A stretch of DNA of 64,000 nt from contig JAIQZU010000035.1 of assembly GCA_021776915.1 (NCBI GenBank), positions 1 through 64,000 of the forward strand. Reading direction: 5' to 3'. Below are positions 17,175-64,000 of the stretch, one piece after another. The notes under the pieces are model-generated. The model had not been told where the DNA came from. It searched no databases and saw nothing but the letters and a program-made list of their open reading frames with translations. How positions within the stretch are numbered: position 1 is the first letter of the stretch; each line of letters starts with the position of its first letter. A program made the position numbers and the translations under genes. The DNA is from Candidatus Scalindua sp. (GTDB lineage: Bacteria; Planctomycetota; Brocadiia; Brocadiales; Scalinduaceae).

Positions 17175-17423
17175 TCAAGAGGCCTTTGAATCAACCTCCT
17201 TTTGGGCCGCTTCAATTAATTCGTTAACAAACATTTCAACATCGGTATTGTGCATCATACACGCCAGGTTTACGTCTTCCGTGCCAAATGCGGGACAATC
17301 AAAACAGCTCTTTCCAAAATGTTTTGCGAACACCTCTCTCGTAGCCGGATATTTTTCCGTTACCTCACCTGTTGTCATTTCTTTTGTTATGTTGACTTTG
17401 TTTGTTCCCTCTGGTTCTTGCAT
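17175..17423 (-). CDS. DUF1858 redox-disulfide protein
   Basis: The C-terminal 60 residues (TGEVTEKYPATREVFAKHFG, then KSCFDCPAFGTEDVNLACMM) are the DUF1858/hybrid-cluster-associated domain with a CxxC pair. I start at ATG 17423 (MQEPEG), preceded by GGGG at good distance. An upstream ATG at 17495 would add a hydrophobic segment but lacks a ribosome binding site; if it were used the protein would be membrane-anchored. It is the first gene of the four-gene small-protein cluster. Confidence 0.75.
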   Translation of the reverse strand: MQEPEGTNKVNITKEMTTGEVTEKYPATREVFAKHFGKSCFDCPAFGTEDVNLACMMHNTDVEMFVNELIEAAQKEVDSKAS

Positions 17424-32015: not shown

Positions 32016-32210
32016 ATTGAGCGATTTCGCCCGCCAGAATGAGTATCGGGCTGGTAGCCGCAACCTTAAGGTAGCGTAACTTACACAAATCCATCAGGTG
32101 ATGAAAAACGCAGGCTACCCGCCTGCCCGCCCGGCGATGCCGTTCGGACGGGTACCTATTCGGGCAGGAAGCCAGCGGCTACAACGGCATGTAAAATAAA
32201 ATCGCTCAAT
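32016..32210. repeat. 195-bp REP cluster with 12-bp terminal inverted repeats
   Basis: ATTGAGCGATTT (32016-32027) and its exact reverse complement (32199-32210) bound a segment rich in CCCGCC and GGGCGG palindromes (32030-32165). It adjoins a truncated vapC frame, so it probably inserted there. Between it and the redoxin gene (31825-32015) I see nothing coding. Confidence 0.6.
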
Positions 32211-54777: not shown

Positions 54778-55287
54778 TTGCTCAAAGATCTGGTTCGTGA
54801 TATTCCCGATTTCCCCAAAGAGGGAATTGTTTTTAAGGATATAACTCCACTATTACAAAACCCTTCGAGTTTGAAGGAAATTGTCAACAAAATTTCTGAT
54901 CACTATGCGAATCAAAAAATCGATGTAATCGTGGGTGCAGAAGCGAGGGGATTCCTTTTTGGTCCCGCAGTCGCTATAAACTTAAACGCAGGATTTGTAC
55001 CGGTCAGGAAACCGGGAAAGCTTCCCTATGAAACAGCAAGCATGACATATGAGCTGGAATATGGTACTGATACACTTGAGATACACAAAGACGCAGTAAA
55101 AGCCGGTGATAATGTTTTGATGCTGGACGATCTTTTAGCAACCGGTGGAACTATGGCCGCCAGTTGTAAATTAGTAGAATCGCTTGGCGGTAAAATTGTG
55201 GGATGTGCTTTCTTAATCGAACTGGGTTTCCTGAATGGAAAAGAGAGATTAAGCAAATATGATATCTTCTCTCTGATTCAATACTGA
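54778..55287 (+). CDS. apt: Adenine phosphoribosyltransferase
   Basis: 169 residues from TTG 54778 with GGAAGAG upstream. RDIPDFPKEGIVFKDITPLL is the N-terminal APRT signature, VGAEARGFLFG the PPi loop, and VLMLDDLLATGGTMAASCKL the PRPP-binding motif. It salvages adenine to AMP. A strong terminator follows. Confidence 0.95.
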   Translation: MLKDLVRDIPDFPKEGIVFKDITPLLQNPSSLKEIVNKISDHYANQKIDVIVGAEARGFLFGPAVAINLNAGFVPVRKPGKLPYETASMTYELEYGTDTLEIHKDAVKAGDNVLMLDDLLATGGTMAASCKLVESLGGKIVGCAFLIELGFLNGKERLSKYDIFSLIQY

Positions 55288-55371: not shown

Positions 55372-55413
55372 GCGCCCGTAGCTCAGATGGATAGAGCGAC
55401 GGTTTCCTAAACC
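55372..55413 (+). tRNA. tRNA-Arg(CCT), 5' half, interrupted
   Basis: GCGCCCGTAGCTCAGATGGA and the following 22 bases give the acceptor 5' strand, D arm, 5' anticodon strand, loop TTCCTAA with anticodon CCT, and the first three bases (ACC) of the 3' anticodon strand. From 55414 the expected GTAGGTC, T arm and acceptor 3' strand are absent, and nothing like GGTTCGA follows within 150 bases. This is the chromosomal side of an integration site in the anticodon region. Confidence 0.85.
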
Positions 55414-55473
55414 CCTCAAGTGAGCTAAAGAGTTTTTCAGTTTAGTTGTATCTGTTTTATTCTGTTTAGGTTT

Positions 55474-55520
55474 AAGGCCAATTCAGGGAGTAATCATACT
55501 TTCCTGTTTTGGCCTTTTTT
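55474..55520 (+). terminator. Terminator in the element's left end
   Basis: AAGGCCA (55474-55480) pairs with TGGCCTT (55510-55516), with an inner CAGGGAG/CTTTCCTG extension and a T7 run. It would stop transcripts that read from the tRNA promoter into the element. 55521-55786 shows nothing coding. Confidence 0.75.
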
Positions 55521-55786
55521 TGTTTATTCAGTTCACAATCTGGTTCACACTCATAAGGAAATGTGTCATGACGTGGATAACTTAAGTTAAGACTCTTTTC
55601 CTTCCTACAACCTCCCCGGTTGATCCTGCCTATACTCCTAAAATTTTGTATTTCAAGGCGTGATTGTGAACTGCTGTATGTATGGCATGGATAATAGAGG
55701 CATACAATATATGTTCCTGTCAACAGGTAGTACTCTTTCTATTGGATGTGTACTATATGTTGACACTGAACATAACATAACGGATA

Positions 55787-56014
55787 TTATAGGACGTTAG
55801 ACGATTGTCTAGCGTTTTTACTCTTTAAACCTGCCTGTTTGCACTTCTCATTTACCTTGTATTTCTCCACAGACACGGTCTTGACTAGCGTCATGTTGCC
55901 CACCTTAATGAACCCTATGTTACCACGTTTTATTGCTTCATAGACGGCTTGCCTGTTTATACCCAACTTTTTAGCTGCTTCTGTGGCTGACATATATTTA
56001 TCAAATTTACTCAT
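55787..56014 (-). CDS. Excisionase-like HTH protein
   Basis: 75 residues with a MerR/excisionase-type winged helix: YMSATEAAKKLGINRQAVYE, then AIKRGNIGFIKVGNMTLV. The C-terminus is basic. Being the gene nearest the left junction it is well placed as a recombination directionality factor, although it might simply be a repressor. An imperfect palindrome CGTTAGAC/GTCTAGCG (55795-55814) overlaps its 3' end. Confidence 0.75.
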   Translation of the reverse strand: MSKFDKYMSATEAAKKLGINRQAVYEAIKRGNIGFIKVGNMTLVKTVSVEKYKVNEKCKQAGLKSKNARQSSNVL

Positions 56015-56276
56015 GATTTAAGTGTAATAAACGCTAGTAAATTGTCAAGTATATTATTTGCCACTTTTCAGGTTTTTTTTGTTCGGATATCTTAGAGACT
56101 AAGGGATTCCTTCGTCTATTTTAAATGTAAAATGACAATATATTGAATCCAGTATGATAAATTTACAACTCTTAAATAATATTGGTTAAATAGGTTCCCT
56201 AGATTAACCAAGCAGATACTATTGACGGTTAGCTGTTCACACTCTCAGCACAATACGTAGCCATCAATATGGTTGG

Positions 56277-56548
56277 GGGAGGGCAAAGCAGATTTGAGCG
56301 CCTCAGAATCGATTCTATGAAGTCATTTATGAGAGTTTCTTTAATCACTCGTGGTTTTTGGTATGTGGCCGTGAATATAAGATGACTAGTATCTCATTTA
56401 AAAAAAGAAATTTAAGAGAAATCCACGTTTTGCTGGGCTTCATTAACTCCACAGATTTATTTCTAGTTCTTACCAGCGCCTAAACGGCGGTTTCGTTCGC
56501 TTACGCTCACAGTGTCCCTCACCAGCCCCCACCCTGCTTTGCCCTCCC
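56277..56548. repeat. Inverted repeat pair enclosing a gene-free segment
   Basis: GGGAGGGCAAAGCAG (56277-56291) and its exact reverse complement (56534-56548) are separated by 242 bases without a coding frame. The region 56015-57331 as a whole has no gene I can support. Confidence 0.55.
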
Positions 56549-56865
56549 ATTTTAACCTTTAGTACATCTCCCCTCTATCTGTACTTTTTCTTTAAATGAA
56601 CATTCTTTTTCTGGAGGGCGCAGGTTGTGTTGGTTTCGGGATTATTTGTATATTTTATTGTTTCACCCGAGTAAAAAAGCTAAGAAATTACAAGTAGGCA
56701 GATCAAGCCCACCCTCCATCCAACGTCCGCTTCTCAAGCAAAAATGTCATTTTGATATTAAGACATATTTATCGCATTCTATTGGGATCACTTCATGAGG
56801 CCGATAAAAAAGTCTTTAAAATATATGACCTTTTGCCCTGGTGTCCTCCCTAAGAGAAAAGGAGT

Positions 56866-57035
56866 CGCCCCGCACAGTAATAATAGTGGTGAAGCAGTAG
56901 GCTGAACAAGGTTTTAAATAAACAGTGCCGTCCGATAATGGCTTATTATCGTACAGAACTGTTTATAATTATAACTGACCAAATTACATAAACTATTTTA
57001 TGCAATCTTCACCACAACTATCACTGAGCGGGGCG
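56866..57035. repeat. Nested imperfect inverted repeats, possible origin or structured RNA
   Basis: The outer arms 56866-56894 and 57007-57035 match at 25 of 29 positions (CGCCCCGC...GTGGTGAAG). Inside, ATAAACAGT/ACTGTTTAT (56918-56926/56958-56966) encloses CGATAAT/ATTATCG (56933-56939/56945-56951) with a 5-base loop and symmetric 6-base internal loops. Confidence 0.6.
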
Positions 57036-57045
57036 AAATTATTCT

Positions 57046-57076
57046 ATGATGATGAACCTTCGATTTTCATCATCAT
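57046..57076. repeat. 10-bp perfect hairpin
   Basis: ATGATGATGA (57046-57055) pairs with TCATCATCAT (57067-57076) around an 11-base loop, 10 bases from the nested repeat. No T run follows, so it is not an obvious terminator. Confidence 0.5.
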
Positions 57077-57331
57077 CGGAAATTTTCTACGGTCTAAAAA
57101 ATCACGCCTAAACATTTTTTTTCGTCATAATTCTGCAAAATCCTTCTAATTCGTTCTGCAGGTTCGCTTCTGCCTTGCGAAAATAGCTCTTGCCGTATTA
57201 ATGCATATCTCAAATATACTTCATTTAGATCAGGTGATCTGATTCTTAGCGGTTGACAAATAGACAGAGGGTTGTATAAAATCATGGAAAGAAGAAGATA
57301 ATCTTAACATCCCCGGAAGAAAGGAGAAATC

Positions 57332-57946
57332 ATGGGTGACTCTTTTGCGAGACGTGCCTGGACAGACGCAAGGGTTTTAACACGTTCCTGCGAATCACTT
57401 CTCGGTATTTGCTCCGGTATGTTGGCCGATGAAGACCTGAACGACAAAGAAGTCAGATATCTCGACAACTGGCTTGACAACAATCGAAATATAGCCACAA
57501 CCTGGCCTGGTGAAGTTGTATATTCCCGCATCAAAAAAATACTCACTGATAACATTATCACCGATGAAGAACGAGAACATCTCAAGCAAACGCTGACAGA
57601 ATTAATAGGAGGTACTCTTCAGGAGACGGGGGCAGCCGGTGGGTTATCAACAAGCCTTCCTCTTAACGAAATAGATACTATCGAAATACGGGACAATATA
57701 TTCTGCTTCACCGGTAATTTCCTTTACGGTACTCGCAAAAACTGCGAACGTGCGATTACCGAAAGAGGCGGTCTTGCCATTCCAAGGATAAGAAAGGATT
57801 TGGATTTTCTCGTTATAGGTACAATGACCAGCAGAGACTGGGCACACACCAGTCATGGCAGGAAGATAGAGAATGCCATCGAGTTCCAGAAAGACAACTG
57901 CCTTATCTTCATCGTAAGCGAAAAACAATGGGTAGAATCCTTATAA
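57332..57946 (+). CDS. BRCT-domain protein
   Basis: 204 residues. The C-terminal half is a BRCT domain: DNIFCFTGNFLYGTRKNCER, then AITERGGLAIPRIRKDLDFL and VIGTMTSRDWAHTSHGRKIE. The N-terminal half is helical (GICSGMLADEDLNDKEVRYL), as in proteins related to the BRCT of NAD-dependent DNA ligase. GAAAGGAG precedes the ATG. It probably binds DNA ends or partner proteins in the element's DNA metabolism. Confidence 0.8.
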   Translation: MGDSFARRAWTDARVLTRSCESLLGICSGMLADEDLNDKEVRYLDNWLDNNRNIATTWPGEVVYSRIKKILTDNIITDEEREHLKQTLTELIGGTLQETGAAGGLSTSLPLNEIDTIEIRDNIFCFTGNFLYGTRKNCERAITERGGLAIPRIRKDLDFLVIGTMTSRDWAHTSHGRKIENAIEFQKDNCLIFIVSEKQWVESL

Positions 57947-58084
57947 AACACATAAACACATCAATCCCGCTCCACAGGATTAAGCCTGCTGGCCGCAAAT
58001 CCCCTCTTAGCATGTTCAGATGCCACAGATATACATCTTCCTAGACACGCTTCTACGTACCTGTTCAGGAACTAATTTTCCCTC

Positions 58085-58112
58085 TTGACTTCTTTTCAGA
58101 AAAGAGTAGAAT
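58085..58112 (+). promoter_or_regulatory. Promoter-like pair ahead of a hairpin terminator
   Basis: TTGACT (58085-58090), a 16-bp spacer and TAGAAT (58107-58112). Transcription would start at about 58119 and meet the hairpin at 58149 after about 30 bases, suggesting a small RNA or an attenuated leader for the RadC-type gene. Confidence 0.4.
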
Positions 58113-58148
58113 CCAAGCATCCTAGAAACACGTTGCACCTAAATAAGC

Positions 58149-58203
58149 TTGATAACAATAAGGCCGGTTCCTTCTAGGAGTTGGCCTTTTTTATTGTTAT
58201 CAA
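58149..58203 (+). terminator. Extended hairpin with T run
   Basis: TTGATAACAATAA (58149-58161) pairs with 58191-58203, and GGCC (58162-58165) with GGCC (58183-58186). A T6 run begins at 58187, so AAGGCC...GGCCTTTTTT is a classic terminator within a longer stem. Confidence 0.75.
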
Positions 58204-58207
58204 AACG

Positions 58208-58277
58208 CCCGTGAACCTGGTGGTACCGGAAACGGCCACGAGAAAGCTTCGTGTTTTCTAGGACAGGTGAACACGGG
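58208..58277 (+). ncRNA. Candidate structured leader upstream of the RadC-type gene
   Basis: CCCGTG/CACGGG (58208-58213/58272-58277) and ACCTG/CAGGT (58215-58219/58264-58268) close a junction. It contains CCG-GAAA-CGG (58226-58235, GNRA tetraloop) and CACGA/TCGTG (58237-58241/58249-58253). TATTTTTATT follows, then the ribosome binding site. Multi-branched folding suggests RNA-level control of the downstream gene. Confidence 0.45.
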
Positions 58278-58300
58278 TATTTTTATTGGGGGATTTTGTT

Positions 58301-58783
58301 ATGGCAGTCAAAAAGGAGAACGGAATATTTATTCGTGAAGTTTCTGTTAGGTATAAGAGAAAGAGGGTGTCTAAAAAAACACATTCTTTTATTGGGAAGC
58401 ACACTTCAAATGCTGACAGAGTAGTAAAGATGCTTTACAGAGATATGCGGCAGGAAACGGTTGAAAAATTTCTTGTAATTCATTTAAATAGTGAAAACAT
58501 AATTGAATCTTTTCAAACGGTAAGTATTGGTACTTTAAATCAAGCTACGGTTTACAAAAGGGAGGTCTTTAAAGCTGCAGTGGTTGCAAATTGTGCCTCG
58601 ATAATCTGTGTTCATAATCACCCATCGGGGAAGTGTATGCCAAGTCTTGAAGATAGAAAAATAACCGAAGAATTGAAGGCGGCAGGAAGCCTTTTAGGCA
58701 TAAAGGTACTTGACCATATAATTATTGGGGATGGCGAGTATTATTCATTTAGTGCGAAGCGCAATGAGCACGTTTATATTTGA
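58301..58783 (+). CDS. RadC/JAB-domain protein
   Basis: About 160 residues from ATG 58301 with TGGGGGA upstream; a TTG at 58286 would add five residues. The JAB metalloprotease-like fold is clear: TVSIGTLNQATVYKREVFKA and the metal motif CVHNHPSGKCMPSLEDRKIT. The helix-hairpin-helix part of chromosomal RadC is missing and is replaced by about 45 basic residues. Such short RadC forms are common on mobile elements; their function is unproven. Confidence 0.88.
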   Translation: MAVKKENGIFIREVSVRYKRKRVSKKTHSFIGKHTSNADRVVKMLYRDMRQETVEKFLVIHLNSENIIESFQTVSIGTLNQATVYKREVFKAAVVANCASIICVHNHPSGKCMPSLEDRKITEELKAAGSLLGIKVLDHIIIGDGEYYSFSAKRNEHVYI

Positions 58784-58789
58784 AAGGGG

Positions 58790-58885
58790 GTGATAGGAAG
58801 AAGGGAGAAAAAAGCTGGCGACTATGTAAGAAAGATATGGCTTGGAGTAATGTTTGGTATTTTGTGGCATTTTACTAATCGTTAA
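58790..58885 (+). CDS. Possible 31-residue membrane peptide
   Basis: GTG 58790 to stop 58885, just after the RadC-type gene. The translation has a basic start (IGRRRE-like, VIGRREKKAGDY) and a hydrophobic end (IWLGVMFGILWHF). The ribosome binding site is too close to the start codon, so the call is weak. Confidence 0.25.
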   Translation: MIGRREKKAGDYVRKIWLGVMFGILWHFTNR

Positions 58886-58907
58886 CCATATCAGGAGGAA
58901 AAGGTAA

Positions 58908-59090
58908 ATGGAAAATTTAATTACTGTAAATGAGGCGGCGGAGTTGCTGGGCTTGAATGTGGAGTCGGTGTACCGGCGTTGCCGCCTTAGAGAAATACCG
59001 TGTTTTAAGATCGGGCGGACGTATAGGTTTAAGGAGTCGAAGTTGCTTATATGGCTTGAGTCTAAAGAGCAGATGAAGCGTATGAAATAA
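58908..59090 (+). CDS. Excisionase/helix-turn-helix protein (HTH_17 type)
   Basis: 60 residues: LITVNEAAELLGLNVESVYR, then RCRLREIPCFKIGRTYRFKE, the standard excisionase-type winged helix. AGGAGGAAAAGG precedes the ATG. It is the second such protein in the element, on the opposite strand from 55787, and may regulate the replication module. Confidence 0.82.
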   Translation: MENLITVNEAAELLGLNVESVYRRCRLREIPCFKIGRTYRFKESKLLIWLESKEQMKRMK

Positions 59091-59134
59091 AGGAAATCTT
59101 GCAATTGCTTAGGAGAAATTTATAATTAATTCAA

Positions 59135-59221
59135 ATCGGGACTAGAGTCGTACGCTCGAACGCTGGTACTCCACCAGTTGTCCCGATCTCTTACCCTTGG
59201 AGAGTTACGAGGAGAGGTAAC
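59135..59221 (+). promoter_or_regulatory. Folded leader with the ribosome binding site in a hairpin loop
   Basis: ATCGGGAC/GTCCCGAT (59135-59142/59180-59187) closes a three-way junction. Its arms are GAG-TCGTACG-CTC (59145-59157) and CTGG-TACTCCA-CCAG (59163-59177). Downstream, GTTAC/GTAAC (59204-59208/59217-59221) holds GAGGAGAG in its loop, directly before the ATG at 59222. Confidence 0.45.
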
Positions 59222-60361
59222 ATGTCAAATACTCTAAAATTACTTGACGATTTGGAAAAGTTGAATGGGTTGCCCTTGGAAAGGGAAGGTCAGGAGATTA
59301 AAAACAGCTTAAAGGAGTCGATAAGTGATGAAATGAAGAAGAAAGTCGAGGGCATTATAAATCCTTATATAATGATCAAGGGTAATAGAGATGAAGCTAT
59401 AAAATTGGCCGCATACATTTATCTTGAAAAAAGTACAGTTTACTCTGATGTCTATTTGCATGAAGAACATAATAAAGCTGCTGTAAGCCTTCTTAGAAAA
59501 GCAAAAAAGGGTGAAAGTATTTACCTTGCATTGTTCCACACACGGAAAACGAAGTTCTCCATAGGAGATAGAAATAAATTAACAGGAAAACGCACACTGA
59601 CGCATAAACTTATGGACCCAGTACCAATAACATATTGTAAATACGTAAACAAGAAGACCGGCCGTTATGATAAGTGGTCTTTCTGTATCGACTATTATCA
59701 ACACGGTTTGGTTCGAGATGATTTCTACTACAAAGGCAATAGACACAGACCTGCTATTGTTAAGGGTGAACCTATAGAAATAATTTACCAGAATGAGTTT
59801 CGATACGTAGACCGGAAGAAATCACGTCCAGAAATTCTTAATACGCTCAAAATAATAGATGAGGGGAATACGTCTATGACTTATTGTGACATGCTTAAAT
59901 TCAAGAACACAGTGTTTTTGTTGGATTTTATGAAGGGAATTAAGGATGAGGATATTGATTGTGACGCATTATTGGAATTTTCTAATGAATTACATGAGTT
60001 AAGAAAAAGTATGCCAGGATCATTAATTATTCACATCGATAAAACAAAGAAATGGCCTAAATACTTCCTTGAACAGCTTGAAGTGATCCCGGCTGGCAAG
60101 ACAAAGACTGTTCGGGAAAAAATAGGTGCAGAGCAGAAGAATCTAAAAAGAGGGGGAAAACAAAATAAAGTACCATATGAAAAATTGATTCCCTATGTAA
60201 AGAAAAATTTGTCGTACCTCAGATCACCTGAAGGAGGGTCACTAAAAGGAGGTGCCTTGCAAGAAAGAATGCAGAAGGATGTAAAAAAACAATTTGAAAA
60301 AAAATATGAGAAAGGAACAATGCGAAATCTGATTTCTGATATTAATACTGGAAAAAAATAG
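59222..60361 (+). CDS. Element protein of unknown function, 379 residues
   Basis: I do not recognise a family. The protein is basic and soluble with no signal or membrane segment. The N-terminal third is helical and charged; the middle contains aromatic-rich stretches (YDKWSFCIDYYQHGLVRDDF, YYKGNRHRPAIVKGEPIEII); the C-terminus is Lys/Gln-rich with RMQKDVKKQFEKKYEKGTMR. The basic character and the neighbouring replication genes suggest nucleic-acid binding, which is inference. Its translation may be controlled by the hairpin at 59204-59221. Confidence 0.7.
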   Translation: MSNTLKLLDDLEKLNGLPLEREGQEIKNSLKESISDEMKKKVEGIINPYIMIKGNRDEAIKLAAYIYLEKSTVYSDVYLHEEHNKAAVSLLRKAKKGESIYLALFHTRKTKFSIGDRNKLTGKRTLTHKLMDPVPITYCKYVNKKTGRYDKWSFCIDYYQHGLVRDDFYYKGNRHRPAIVKGEPIEIIYQNEFRYVDRKKSRPEILNTLKIIDEGNTSMTYCDMLKFKNTVFLLDFMKGIKDEDIDCDALLEFSNELHELRKSMPGSLIIHIDKTKKWPKYFLEQLEVIPAGKTKTVREKIGAEQKNLKRGGKQNKVPYEKLIPYVKKNLSYLRSPEGGSLKGGALQERMQKDVKKQFEKKYEKGTMRNLISDINTGKK

Positions 60362-60455
60362 AGATTTTACATTTTGTTGTCATTTTTCGAATTTGAAAAA
60401 TGACGGCAAAATTACGGCAAAATGAAGGTATTTTTTTGAATTATAGCAGTTCTGA

Positions 60456-60484
60456 TTGACATAACAAACAAACAGACTTTTAAT
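60456..60484 (+). promoter_or_regulatory. Strong promoter of the replication operon
   Basis: TTGACA (60456-60461), exactly 17 bp, TTTAAT (60479-60484). It lies about 65 bp before the ribbon-helix-helix gene. Confidence 0.65.
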
Positions 60485-60524
60485 AGACTTGTAGACTTAA
60501 ATGAGTTTACAGGTCTTTTTTTTT
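60485..60524 (+). terminator. Terminator overlapping the start of the replication-operon transcript
   Basis: AGACTTGTAGACT (60485-60497) pairs with 60504-60516 over 13 bp (two G-T pairs), followed by nine T's (60516-60524). It could end the transcript of the 379-residue protein gene. A transcript begun at about 60491 would lack part of the left arm and might escape. An additional 10-bp hairpin is at 60379-60404. Confidence 0.75.
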
Positions 60525-60546
60525 AATTCTTTTTGGAGGATCGGCA

Positions 60547-60723
60547 ATGGTATACAAGCAGAATCTTCATGTTTTGGTCCCGATTGACCAGTTTGAGCAG
60601 TTACGGCGGCTAGGCCATAAGATGAACATATCACGTTCAGTGCTGGCGAGGGAAGCGATTTCCATGCTATTAAAAAAGTACAACAAGAAAATACATAACG
60701 AGGAGGTTACGAATGTCATATAG
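60547..60723 (+). CDS. Small ribbon-helix-helix DNA-binding protein
   Basis: 58 residues from ATG 60547 with GGAGG at good spacing. The fold pattern is HVLVPIDQFEQLRRLGHKMN, then ISRSVLAREAISMLLKKY, typical of CopG/Arc-type regulators of element replication. It overlaps the next gene by 11 bp, so the two are translationally coupled. Confidence 0.75.
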   Translation: MVYKQNLHVLVPIDQFEQLRRLGHKMNISRSVLAREAISMLLKKYNKKIHNEEVTNVI

Positions 60724-60892
60724 TGAAAAAGGGCTTTTGCACCGGCTCAAAAGACTCGGACTCCAAGAGGGGTCTAGTAATTATAAAGACTACGAGAAGG
60801 CGAAGAAGGAAATCCGTAAAATTGCAAACAATTCCGATGAATACGAAAAATTAACCAAGTATGCCAAAGATCATTTTAGATGCCAATACTAA
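60713..60892 (+). CDS. Small charged protein coupled to the primase
   Basis: 59 residues from ATG 60713, with GAGGAGG just upstream inside the preceding gene. The protein (YSEKGLLHRLKRLGLQEGSS...) is basic and helical with no recognised motif. Its stop TAA is immediately followed by the ATG of the primase-helicase, so the proteins are probably made in fixed ratio and may interact. Confidence 0.7.
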   Translation: MSYSEKGLLHRLKRLGLQEGSSNYKDYEKAKKEIRKIANNSDEYEKLTKYAKDHFRCQY

Positions 60893-63088
60893 ATGAATCT
60901 CGACAAAATTAAAACAATTCCGATTGTCCAGGTTGCTGCACAACACCTGGGGCTATCCGTTGATAAAAATAATAAGCTCCGATGCTTTAATGCGTCAGCA
61001 CATAAGCAGGGTGATCTACATCCATCCTTAAGCCTTGACATCTCGAATAACCGTTTCAAATGCTTTTCTTGCGGTGTTTCAGGTAGTACTATCGATCTTA
61101 CCATGGGATATAAAAGCGTGGATATTAAGCAGGCAGGGAGGGAGTTAGAAAAAACATTTTTCAGTGAAGATGTGAAAGAGAAGGAGTATTCCCTCCATGC
61201 TATTCAAGGTTGGAATTTGGACAAGAAAATATTTGATGAACTATATGATTATGGTCCATACATCAAAGTACGATTCAGGGATCCGGAAAATAGAAAAGAT
61301 AAATTAGATTTATTTTTCACAAAGACATCTTCCGGTAAATTCGTCAAGGGCCGGAAATGTGAGCCTATGCTTTTTAATCAGCAAGATGTTGAATCACGCC
61401 CAGGTGAAAAAGTACTATATGTTGAAGGTGAAGCTTGCGTCAACGCAATGAAGTCCCTAGGATATCTTGCCTCAACTGCAGGCTCTGCAACAATTACACA
61501 TAAAACATTCACACCTGAAATGATTTTGAAATTACAAAATCGTGACATCATAATCCTTCCAGATGCCGACACGCCCGGTCTTCAACTCGTGACAGATATG
61601 GCTTCCCTCGTGAATGCTACGGTCAAAACTTTACGTGTCGTAGATATTAGGCCTGCCTGGCAGAGTACCTTTAGCGAAGAAATGCCGGAAAAGGCAGACA
61701 TAAAAAATTTCATTGAAAAGTATAGAGTAAGCCACGGCGATGAAGGATTAAAGCAAAGTATAGACTCGATGATCGTTGGCGCCAAGCCAGTCGAGATGCC
61801 AGTCATTGCTAACAATGACAATGGGTCAAATCCATCAGGCTATTTTATAAAAAAAGTATTTATTCCACAGTTCGTAACGGAAGATGTTCTGAAAAGTCAT
61901 AAGCTTCTATATGCTCAGAAACAATTTCACGAATACGTTGATGGCTATTACAAACAAATCGACACAGATAATATTCTGGAGATTGCTAAAACCTTATTGG
62001 GTACACAGAGTCGGAATAATCGACTTAACGAAGTTTTAACAGACGTAAAGCTATCAGTATTATTAAATGAAGGTAAGCAGCTTAATGCCCGGACGGAATA
62101 CATTAACCTGCAGAACGGCATGCTCAACTGGATCGAAAAAAAACTATTACCGCATGCCCCTGATTACCTCTCGACAGTTCGCATAAATGCAAACTATAAC
62201 CCTGATGCTCAATGCCCCCACTTCATGCAGTTTCTTTGTGAAGTATTAGAACCGGATGTTATACCCTTAATCCAAGAGCTAATAGGCTACTGTTTGATTC
62301 AGGATACACGTTTTGAAAAAGCCTTTTTATTGATAGGGAAAGGGGCTAATGGGAAGGGTACATTTCTCGGTGTATTAAGGTTTCTTTTAGGACCCGAGAA
62401 CGTTAGTGATATTCCCTTACAAAATCTGGCCGATCGTTTCAGTACAGTGCAGTTACATGGGAAGCTGGCGAATATTTTTACAGACATTAGCGCAACAGCT
62501 ATGAAGGAAACTGGCTATTTTAAAGCTATAGTGAGTGGCGATAGATTGACTGGAGAACGGAAGCATCAGGATGCCTTCAGCTTTCAACCATTCGCCAGGC
62601 TAATTTATTCTTGTAATGAAATCCCTCGCTCTTACGATCGTACATACGCTTTTTACAGAAGATGGGTGCTGGTACCCTTTAACAAAACATTCGCAAAGAA
62701 TGAAATTGACAGATCACTTAAATCTAAACTACTGGAAGAACGAGACGGCATCCTCATCTGGGCGGTTGAAGGATTGCACAGATTATTCAGACAGCAAGAT
62801 TTTTCAATGTCAGAAAGTTCGAACGATCTTATGAATACATACAAGGTAACAAATGATAATATTTTACAGTACGTGTCTGACAGATGCATTCTAGGTGACA
62901 ATTATCACGTGGATAAAGTTGTTTTCTACGATAATTACAAAGACTATTGTAACGAGAATAACCTCAGGGCTATGAGTCAGCGAAAATTAAATTCAGAATT
63001 ACTGGAAAAGTTTACCAGCGTACATGAAATAAGAGGGGGGTTCTCGCGTAAACGTACATGGAAGGGGATTGGTTTGAATGAAAATTGA
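60893..63088 (+). CDS. P4-type primase-helicase
   Basis: 731 residues. An N-terminal CHC2-like zinc finger (RCFNASAHKQGDLHPSLSLD, FKCFSCGVSGSTIDL), a TOPRIM domain (KVLYVEGEACVNAMKSLGYL, IIILPDADTPGLQL), a D5_N region, and an SF3-type ATPase with Walker A IGKGANGKGTFLG, then ANIFTDISATAMKETGYFKA and LIYSCNEIPRSYDRTYAFYR. It would prime and unwind the element's own DNA at its origin. The iteron-like array lies directly downstream. Confidence 0.93.
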   Translation: MNLDKIKTIPIVQVAAQHLGLSVDKNNKLRCFNASAHKQGDLHPSLSLDISNNRFKCFSCGVSGSTIDLTMGYKSVDIKQAGRELEKTFFSEDVKEKEYSLHAIQGWNLDKKIFDELYDYGPYIKVRFRDPENRKDKLDLFFTKTSSGKFVKGRKCEPMLFNQQDVESRPGEKVLYVEGEACVNAMKSLGYLASTAGSATITHKTFTPEMILKLQNRDIIILPDADTPGLQLVTDMASLVNATVKTLRVVDIRPAWQSTFSEEMPEKADIKNFIEKYRVSHGDEGLKQSIDSMIVGAKPVEMPVIANNDNGSNPSGYFIKKVFIPQFVTEDVLKSHKLLYAQKQFHEYVDGYYKQIDTDNILEIAKTLLGTQSRNNRLNEVLTDVKLSVLLNEGKQLNARTEYINLQNGMLNWIEKKLLPHAPDYLSTVRINANYNPDAQCPHFMQFLCEVLEPDVIPLIQELIGYCLIQDTRFEKAFLLIGKGANGKGTFLGVLRFLLGPENVSDIPLQNLADRFSTVQLHGKLANIFTDISATAMKETGYFKAIVSGDRLTGERKHQDAFSFQPFARLIYSCNEIPRSYDRTYAFYRRWVLVPFNKTFAKNEIDRSLKSKLLEERDGILIWAVEGLHRLFRQQDFSMSESSNDLMNTYKVTNDNILQYVSDRCILGDNYHVDKVVFYDNYKDYCNENNLRAMSQRKLNSELLEKFTSVHEIRGGFSRKRTWKGIGLNEN

Positions 63089-63094
63089 CATAAA

Positions 63095-63346
63095 TCCCAG
63101 CTTTGGGGTCGTTGATCCCAAGTTGATCCCGGAAGCAATCCCAAGTTAAGTCCTTATACTGTAAAGCTTGTCCCAGGTATCCCAAGTTGTTTTCTATATA
63201 TCGCATAAGAAAATTAAAATAAAGAAGAAGTAAAATATATAAAAGAATGTCTACTAAACTTGGGATACTTGGGACGATATATATAAACATATTCTATGGC
63301 AATAGTTAACTGTCACAGAAGAATCCCGGGTATCCCAGCTATCCCA
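63095..63346. repeat. Iteron-like array of TCCCA motifs, candidate origin
   Basis: TCCCA/G motifs start at 63095, 63116, 63127, 63139, 63171, 63180, 63324, 63333 and 63342, with inverted copies at 63261 and 63270. Several are in the longer form TATCCCAAGTT or its inverse. An AT-rich stretch (63185-63250) lies in the middle. Array plus AT-rich segment next to the primase gene fits a replication origin. Confidence 0.6.
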
Positions 63347-63364
63347 GAAACAGGATTTACAAAA

Positions 63365-63730
63365 ATGACCGATCTGTTGGAAAAGTTTAACACGGTTCAT
63401 AATCCAAAAGCTACATTTGATGCAGAATGCACACAAATGTTTGATAAGGCTATGATGGTTCTGAATGGAAACTACATTGCAGGCACCTATGATTATATTT
63501 CTCACAATCGAAAAGAACTGTATCAGAAAATTGTAAAGCTTGAGGGTGGATTGGAGAAGTTTTGGGGAAAGGGTATAGAGGCTTTCAGGGAGGTCTTGAC
63601 GGCATATTACAGATTGACTATGGATTGCATCAGACTTCACAGAGAATCAATAAGCATGTCTCAAACAGACGAGCCAAAGGAAAGGCAGCCTGACAGCGTT
63701 CTGGCCGTAAGCAATCATGGCGGGCAATGA
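63365..63730 (+). CDS. Element protein of unknown function
   Basis: About 121 residues from ATG 63365 (MTDLLEKFN), with AGGA upstream. An earlier in-frame ATG at 63296 would translate the TCCCA repeats as IPGIPAIP, which is unlikely to be native but cannot be excluded. The protein is helical and charged (LYQKIVKLEGGLEKFWGKGI, EAFREVLTAYYRLTMDCIRL) with no family I recognise. It is transcribed in the same direction as the primase. Confidence 0.55.
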   Translation: MTDLLEKFNTVHNPKATFDAECTQMFDKAMMVLNGNYIAGTYDYISHNRKELYQKIVKLEGGLEKFWGKGIEAFREVLTAYYRLTMDCIRLHRESISMSQTDEPKERQPDSVLAVSNHGGQ

Positions 63731-64000
63731 CGCTAACGCCTGGAGCCTTGCAGTATGGACGCCGGCTGCCTGGTTAAGTTATTGTGAAGGCATCGCGTTA
63801 ACCTGATTTAAAAATTCTAGAATTTTTATTTCGTCAACCGCCTAGTTTTCGTTTTGGTTGACACACAGAATGCCTGTAAGGTTCTATTCTGGAAGCCTTT
63901 GAAATGAATATACAACTTTTGAATTGATAACAATTTCTGGCTGTGATGTTCGTTTTTACCGGCCTGAAAACGAAATTATTTCGTGTTTGAGGCAAGGCAG
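63731..64000. other. Gene-free right edge
   Basis: Two hairpins are visible: AAAAATTCTAGAATTTTT at about 63810-63828, which could terminate the preceding gene, and GTCAACC/GGTTGAC at about 63835-63861. No frame is convincing. Confidence 0.4.

Follow-up and report, generated by a model that had tools for sequence, protein, structure and literature searches.

A tRNA-Arg(CCT) gene split by an integrative element in Candidatus Scalindua, with a new 5' half of the gene probably supplied by an element at the site

What becomes of a tRNA gene when an integrative element breaks it in the anticodon arm and leaves no 3' half behind the break? The question is raised by a stretch of 64,000 nucleotides of DNA from a marine anammox bacterium, judged by apt to be a Candidatus Scalindua; this stretch, here called the window, is C29:1-64000 of a contig that runs to 65649 in a draft metagenome assembly (G000; 3.79 Mb in 89 contigs). 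Read directly from the sequence, positions 55372-55411 on the plus strand are GCGCCCGTAGCTCAGATGGATAGAGCGACGGTTTCCTAAA, the 5' half of tRNA-Arg(CCT) starting at the first base of the acceptor stem, with the anticodon stem of the half at 55399-55403. The block ends at 55411, one base past the anticodon loop, after which the contig continues CCCCTCAAG; the CCGT/TCGT stem of the gene is not there, and CCCCTCAAGTGAGC occupies the place of the 3' strand of the stem and of the T arm. ARAGORN called no tRNA anywhere in the window, and there is none on the remainder of the contig. A first-pass annotation of this DNA had described the gene as intact to three bases past the anticodon loop and then divergent. 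The divergence is as described, but the extent is shorter, as identity with the rebuilt copy of the gene (see below) stops at 55411; for the bases at 55412-55413 the sole match is the ACC stem form that some relatives have.

The annotation had suggested looking for an uninterrupted allele in related genomes, and one is present at 11/11 of the same-genus loci. In every same-genus genome where the place could be found, the order is apt, tRNA-Arg(CCT), TPR gene and rluD without interruption, with the complete tRNA gene about 90 bp after apt, followed by a TPR membrane protein and then by the pseudouridine synthase RluD. In ten of the 11 relatives, the left flank is 86-93% identical up to and including the tRNA half. 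Since the same chromosomal place is uninterrupted in all 11, the stranded half is not a chance resemblance. An intact 3' half within the element, adjoining 55413, would have spoken against a broken gene; it was looked for, and none is there. Judged by sequence comparison, the interruption of tRNA-Arg(CCT) at 55372-55411 is confirmed as real.

The other part of the gene lies on a second contig of the same genome. A complete tRNA-Arg(CCT) is found at C14:117963-118036, and its first 40 bp are identical to the half in the window, while the two 5' halves differ both before and after these 40 bp. The shared core, which had been put at about 11 bp, is thus the whole 40-bp 5' half, of which the 11 bp are the right edge. 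The TPR gene and rluD of this genome are on the same contig (C14:113971-116273), so that C29 and C14 appear as the two sides of one interrupted locus. Displaced fragment and complete cognate tDNA have the same orientation with the 5' fragment upstream, the two contigs being joined by synteny with the 11 genomes. Directly before the complete gene, and in the same direction, lies a tyrosine integrase gene whose frame enters the tRNA, so that tRNA sequence makes up the final 12 to 13 codons and the anticodon loop provides the stop codon, TAA. The open reading frame ends in ...PYAPVAQMDRATVS before the stop (the C-terminus of the protein is also given as ...ISPYAPVAQMDRATVS), and it is open from the contig end to this stop inside the att block, with the N-terminus beyond the contig. 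A complete tRNA-Arg(CCT) is therefore standing at an integrase end with an apparently element-derived 5' half, which is fused to the integrase gene.

The first-pass annotation had offered two outcomes, a new 5' half at the other end of the element or destruction of the gene, and the C14 locus bears out the former. Had the gene been destroyed, with the missing half absent from the element, AGG codons would have to be read by tRNA-Arg(TCT) alone, and a tRNA-Arg(TCT) that could read AGG by wobble is indeed present (C33); the complete tRNA-Arg(CCT) on C14 in the right chromosomal context refutes this reading at the sequence level and makes it very unlikely. The annotation had also proposed to see whether a promoter comes with the replacement half. 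The replacement half is present, but a scan of the DNA directly before the rebuilt gene, of a kind that covers Planctomycetota promoters poorly, showed no clear sigma-70-like promoter; the yield of the promoter scans was no higher than expected of shuffled sequence.

Taken together, we consider it highly probable (roughly 0.92) that element A, as we call the element that begins in the window, integrated into tRNA-Arg(CCT) and stranded its 5' half, while an element-borne 5' half rebuilt the gene at the integrase end. Element A, with phage- or satellite-like genes and a tyrosine integrase at its right end, would have recombined into the anticodon loop of the chromosomal gene, its integrase joining the anticodon loops of attP and attB. 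On the integrase side of the crossover, the elements at this site would bear the tRNA 5' half in a 40-bp copy; the crossover itself probably lies within the anticodon loop by analogy with the known Islander site A sublocation (PMC4383910). The original 5' half would be left stranded behind apt as attL, the feature seen in the window, and the new complete gene at the integrase end would be attR, composed of the element 5' half and the chromosomal 3' half. The working gene would be supplied by the element that adjoins the chromosomal 3' half. With the carried half lying on the integrase side, the rebuilt gene would stand at the integrase end, and, because that half is the 5' one, the native upstream region would stay with 55372-55411 and the rebuilt gene would have to be transcribed from the element. 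Its expression would presumably come from an element promoter, either through the integrase transcript or from a nearer promoter.

The features of the locus are collected in Table 1. Within the 10.2 kb of element A that can be seen, an integrase, an AlpA-like regulator and a primase-helicase are found, with no structural gene among the open reading frames tested; the element may be a P4-like satellite or a PICI. The catalytic R, HxxR, H and Y set can be read directly in the C29 integrase (TGMR; HDLRH; LGHK...RYSH), which is a predicted tyrosine recombinase. Every copy of GTTCACA[AC]TC that the window contains (4/4) falls within the first 0.85 kb of element A, and the motif also occurs beside the C14 integrase. 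The c4-2 RNA, which sits just upstream of the RadC gene, is possibly a phage C4-type regulator.

Table 1. Coordinates of the features at the interrupted tRNA-Arg(CCT) locus; positions are those of the window unless a contig is named.
Feature	Position	Strand	Evidence or remark
apt (adenine phosphoribosyltransferase), left chromosomal flank	54778..55287	+	neighbour of tRNA-Arg(CCT) across Scalindua genomes, 78-96% aa identity
Displaced tRNA-Arg(CCT) 5' half, attL, 40-bp att identity block	55372..55411	+	100% identity over 40 bp to C14:117963-118036
Anticodon loop TTCCTAA, anticodon CCT at 55406-55408	55404..55410	+	read from sequence; presumed crossover (overlap) region
Element A	55412..64000, on to contig end C29:65649 (~10.2 kb seen)	+	left-end homology to G001 element in tRNA-Arg(ACG); integrase PF00589
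Two direct arm-site-like repeats GTTCACAATC / GTTCACACTC, 12 bp apart	55531..55552	+	more copies at 55671 (-) and 56235 (+)
HTH_17 protein, possible excisionase/regulator	55787..56014	-	PF12728 E=1.4e-8; PHROG excisionase 5.6e-6
phrog_3989 protein	57332..57946	+	E=6.5e-67
c4-2 RNA (Rfam RF02944)	58204..58283	+	48.4 bits, gathering 41
RadC/JAB-domain protein	58286..58783	+	PF04002 E=5.7e-41
AlpA-like HTH_17 protein	58908..59090	+	PF12728 E=4.3e-14
Phage/satellite-type primase-helicase (Zn ribbon, D5_N, DUF5906)	60893..63088	+	profile matches
Element A integrase, runs off contig	C29:64544-65649		Phage_integrase PF00589 E=5.1e-36; homologue on C14

The surroundings of the site have further features of their own. 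About 1.7 kb between the rebuilt tRNA gene and the TPR gene on C14 is not found beside this tRNA in relatives; a 1.4 kb cyclic-nucleotide/HDOD-like gene, absent there in relatives, lies in this interval at about 116300-117960 (L228). This extra interval speaks against the preferred reading, as do the missing overlap of C29 and C14 and the lack of a clear sigma-70-like promoter. In S. rubra, a decayed 3' remnant of an integrase gene, with 76% DNA identity to the C14 integrase, is present just before tRNA-Arg(CCT), and integrase remnants flank the intact tRNA gene there (L090, 4016-4250 and 4419-4733), one co-directional and one antisense. Remnants at both sides would point to repeated past insertions at this gene. 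Elsewhere in the genome under study, the only other two matches to TTTCCTAAACC, on C46 and C88, were considered as right ends and rejected, as no tRNA half lies alongside either. C46:126077-126092 on the minus strand (L002) reads GTTTCCTAAACCCCTC, which agrees in all 16 bp with element A at its left junction, and C46 also has, out of order and about 100 bp away, a 13-mer of the left end of element A.

A homologous element occurs in another Scalindua genome (G001), where it is inserted in tRNA-Arg(ACG) with a displaced 5' half at C34:11219. Its left end shares 85% identity with the window over a span of 182 bp that takes in the tRNA half, and has paired repeats GTTCACAATC and TTCACACTC; no tRNA 3' half was found just inside it. 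At C56:1531, the rebuilt tRNA-Arg(ACG) comes right after an integrase with 76% identity to that of C29, and the frame of this integrase ends about ten bases inside the tRNA. The G001 element would thus illustrate how the target has changed and the carried half with it. It also bears on whether the window holds a chimeric join at 55411, which the first-pass annotation had named as a reason to doubt the split and which might be suspected in a draft of 89 contigs where C29 and C14 both end inside integrase genes. Since a second genome has the same left end behind the displaced 5' half of a different tRNA, and relatives have an orthologous flank as far as the break, misassembly is exceedingly improbable.

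Whether one element or several occupy the site is less certain. The C29 and C14 integrases share 71% identity over their comparable part. A tree of 48 relatives pairs the C29 integrase with that of the G001 element as sisters, with full support (100/100), and places the C14 integrase as sister to one in another genome, G010. Because the two integrases differ, at least two elements are probably present in tandem. The left end of the G001 element matches that of C29 and their integrases are sisters; on this basis C29 most likely holds one element almost complete, and C14 the end of a second one. The two contigs do not overlap, and the right end of element A lies beyond C29. No contig of this genome was found to match the C29 end beyond the C14 integrase, and no second primase was found in the genome. 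A single element with two integrase genes, of which C29 and C14 would be the two ends, would account for the one displaced half and one rebuilt gene that are seen, and the GTTCACAATC arm motif is common to the C14 integrase and the C29 left end. However, the left end and integrase of C29 look like a complete unit in view of the G001 match and the fully supported sister integrase (100/100), and in G008 a displaced 5' half lies behind what appears to be the 3' end of another integrase gene (L265), a tandem-like arrangement. We therefore regard a single element as rather unlikely and prefer a tandem array, whose order across the contig gap, like the right end of element A itself, would follow from these comparisons.

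Islands of the same kind are found at other tRNA genes. In G014, probably S. rubra, an island in tRNA-Thr(CGT) that carries the 5' half is whole on contig C22 over about 14.8 kb, with the displaced half at 32019-32056, the start of the rebuilt gene at 17285 (minus strand) and the integrase adjoining the rebuilt gene. Displaced tRNA-Thr(CGT) 5' halves are also present in G004 and G008, and the pattern recurs, with a displaced half, in tRNA-Lys(CTT) of G021 on two contigs. In G004, two displaced tRNA-Thr(CGT) 5' halves lie 4.9 kb apart (C116:5745 and 10610; L267 and L261), one of them decayed and each coming after a short repeated stretch, which is probably a tandem array. Two contigs of IMG/VR have an integrase, then a tRNA-Arg(CCT) 5' half and then non-tRNA DNA, an attP-like order, and these phage-like contigs suggest that attP sites with a 5' half may exist outside this lineage. 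A scan of IMG/VR with the integrase as query gave no match. Viral contigs with a tRNA-Arg(CCT) 5' half but no 3' half were noted there (L204, L205, L209, L210, L212 and L213), and in L205 the half lies 22 bp beyond the end of the integrase gene, again in an attP-like order.

How common either carried half is can be gauged from 32 loci with a complete tRNA at the integrase end, a sample of draft metagenome assemblies picked by similarity to the C29 integrase rather than a census: the tRNA is antisense to the integrase (3' half carried) in 25/32 and in the same sense (5' half) in 7/32. A displaced 5' half was seen for 4/7 genomes and targets (Arg-CCT, Arg-ACG, Lys-CTT and Thr-CGT), Arg-TCT of G008 being left out. 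That most relatives of the integrase carry the 3' half (25 loci with the adjacent tRNA antisense to it) might suggest that the window is a decayed junction of an ordinary island carrying that half. Against this, no 3' half is present in the element from 55412 onward, the G001 relative also has none just inside its left end, and the rebuilt gene is at the integrase end, where integrase and tRNA run in the same direction. These observations render such an island extremely unlikely; carriage of the 5' half is the reading we retain.

Within the integrase family, sister pairs of opposite type occur, and the integrase of G010, sister to that of C14, reads into a tRNA-Val 3' half. On the integrase tree, carriage of the 5' half requires four changes, each forced by well-supported branches. 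A motif on the integrase side of the tRNA, TAAGTC[ACT]TT, lies 17 to 18 bases before it in loci of the 3' type and 10, 20 and 22 bases before it in three loci of the 5' type; 17/22 of its occurrences in 105 kb fall within the 40 bases adjoining a tRNA. A second motif, GTTCACA, is found further in and also at the left end. Both motifs are putative integrase-binding sites, whose position would be kept whichever tRNA half intervenes before the core. A third layout, with no complete tRNA at the integrase end, is seen in L171, L175, L235 and L241: in L171 and L175 the integrase adjoins a displaced tRNA-Val 3' half, and L235 and L241 have the same integrase ending. In G000, a lone tRNA-Val-like 3' half (C79:694-766, L229; 31 bits) near a truncated integrase resembles the displaced end of an island of the 3' type.

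We lean slightly towards the view that, in one clade of anammox integrases, attP has changed repeatedly both in the half it carries (3' or 5') and in its target tRNA, with the integrase-side signals kept. The near-symmetric anticodon arm could be read either way, the half on the integrase side would become the carried half, and the 5' mode would place the host tRNA under the transcriptional control of the element.

The arrangement at this locus is of a known but uncommon kind and is the mirror image of the usual one. It had been noted in the first-pass annotation that most elements targeting tRNA genes carry the 3' half, in agreement with Islander, where 3760 of 3919 islands have a 3' tRNA fragment and 159 a 5' fragment (Hudson, Lau and Williams, PMC4383910); the class with a 5' tDNA fragment is treated earlier in Williams 2002, as cited in later papers. 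The Scalindua elements resemble the 5'-fragment islands of Islander in their tyrosine integrase, their site in the anticodon loop, the displaced 5' fragment opposite a rebuilt tRNA gene and the tandem arrays. They differ in that here the 3' and 5' types occur side by side in one integrase family and one bacterial order. Our literature search found no Scalindua case of a 5'-fragment island.

Among integrative plasmids of the Thermococcales, those like pTN3 share the tRNA 5' half, about 41 bp, as their site (PMC5495485), and in the archaeal pTN3 the integrase promoter reportedly drives expression of the rebuilt tRNA (PMC8371274). As in pTN3, the 5' half is shared here and the rebuilt gene lies behind integrase DNA, away from its own promoter (PMC5495485; PMC8371274). 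However, the archaeal integrase gene of pTN3 is split on integration, whereas the C14 integrase is not visibly split and has its stop codon within the shared block. Integrases of the SSV and Mx8 type extend across attP (cited in PMC4383910), and the overlap of integrase coding sequence with the attachment site is a likeness to them; SSV, in contrast, carries the 3' part of the tRNA gene and has its integrase gene split (PMC8371274). In the tRNA-dependent lysogeny of actinobacteriophages, a separate complete tRNA gene is carried and the core is short (10 bp in Fionnbharth) (PMC10865867). There too integration breaks a tRNA gene and the element must make good the loss, but the Scalindua elements bring half a gene and rebuild the target with it, and no complete tRNA gene is present in the element on C29. 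In bacteria the rebuilt tRNA gene keeps its promoter with very few exceptions, and cases that lose it are seldom met (PMC8371274).

That a single integrase family has repeatedly exchanged the half it carries may be new. With both modes, sister pairs of opposite type and a whole island of the 5' type on one contig, the switching of halves and the transcription of the rebuilt tRNA become testable. Where the 3' half is carried, the host tRNA keeps its own promoter. Elements with the 5' half remove that promoter and must supply one, and the host tRNA would then be hostage to the element.
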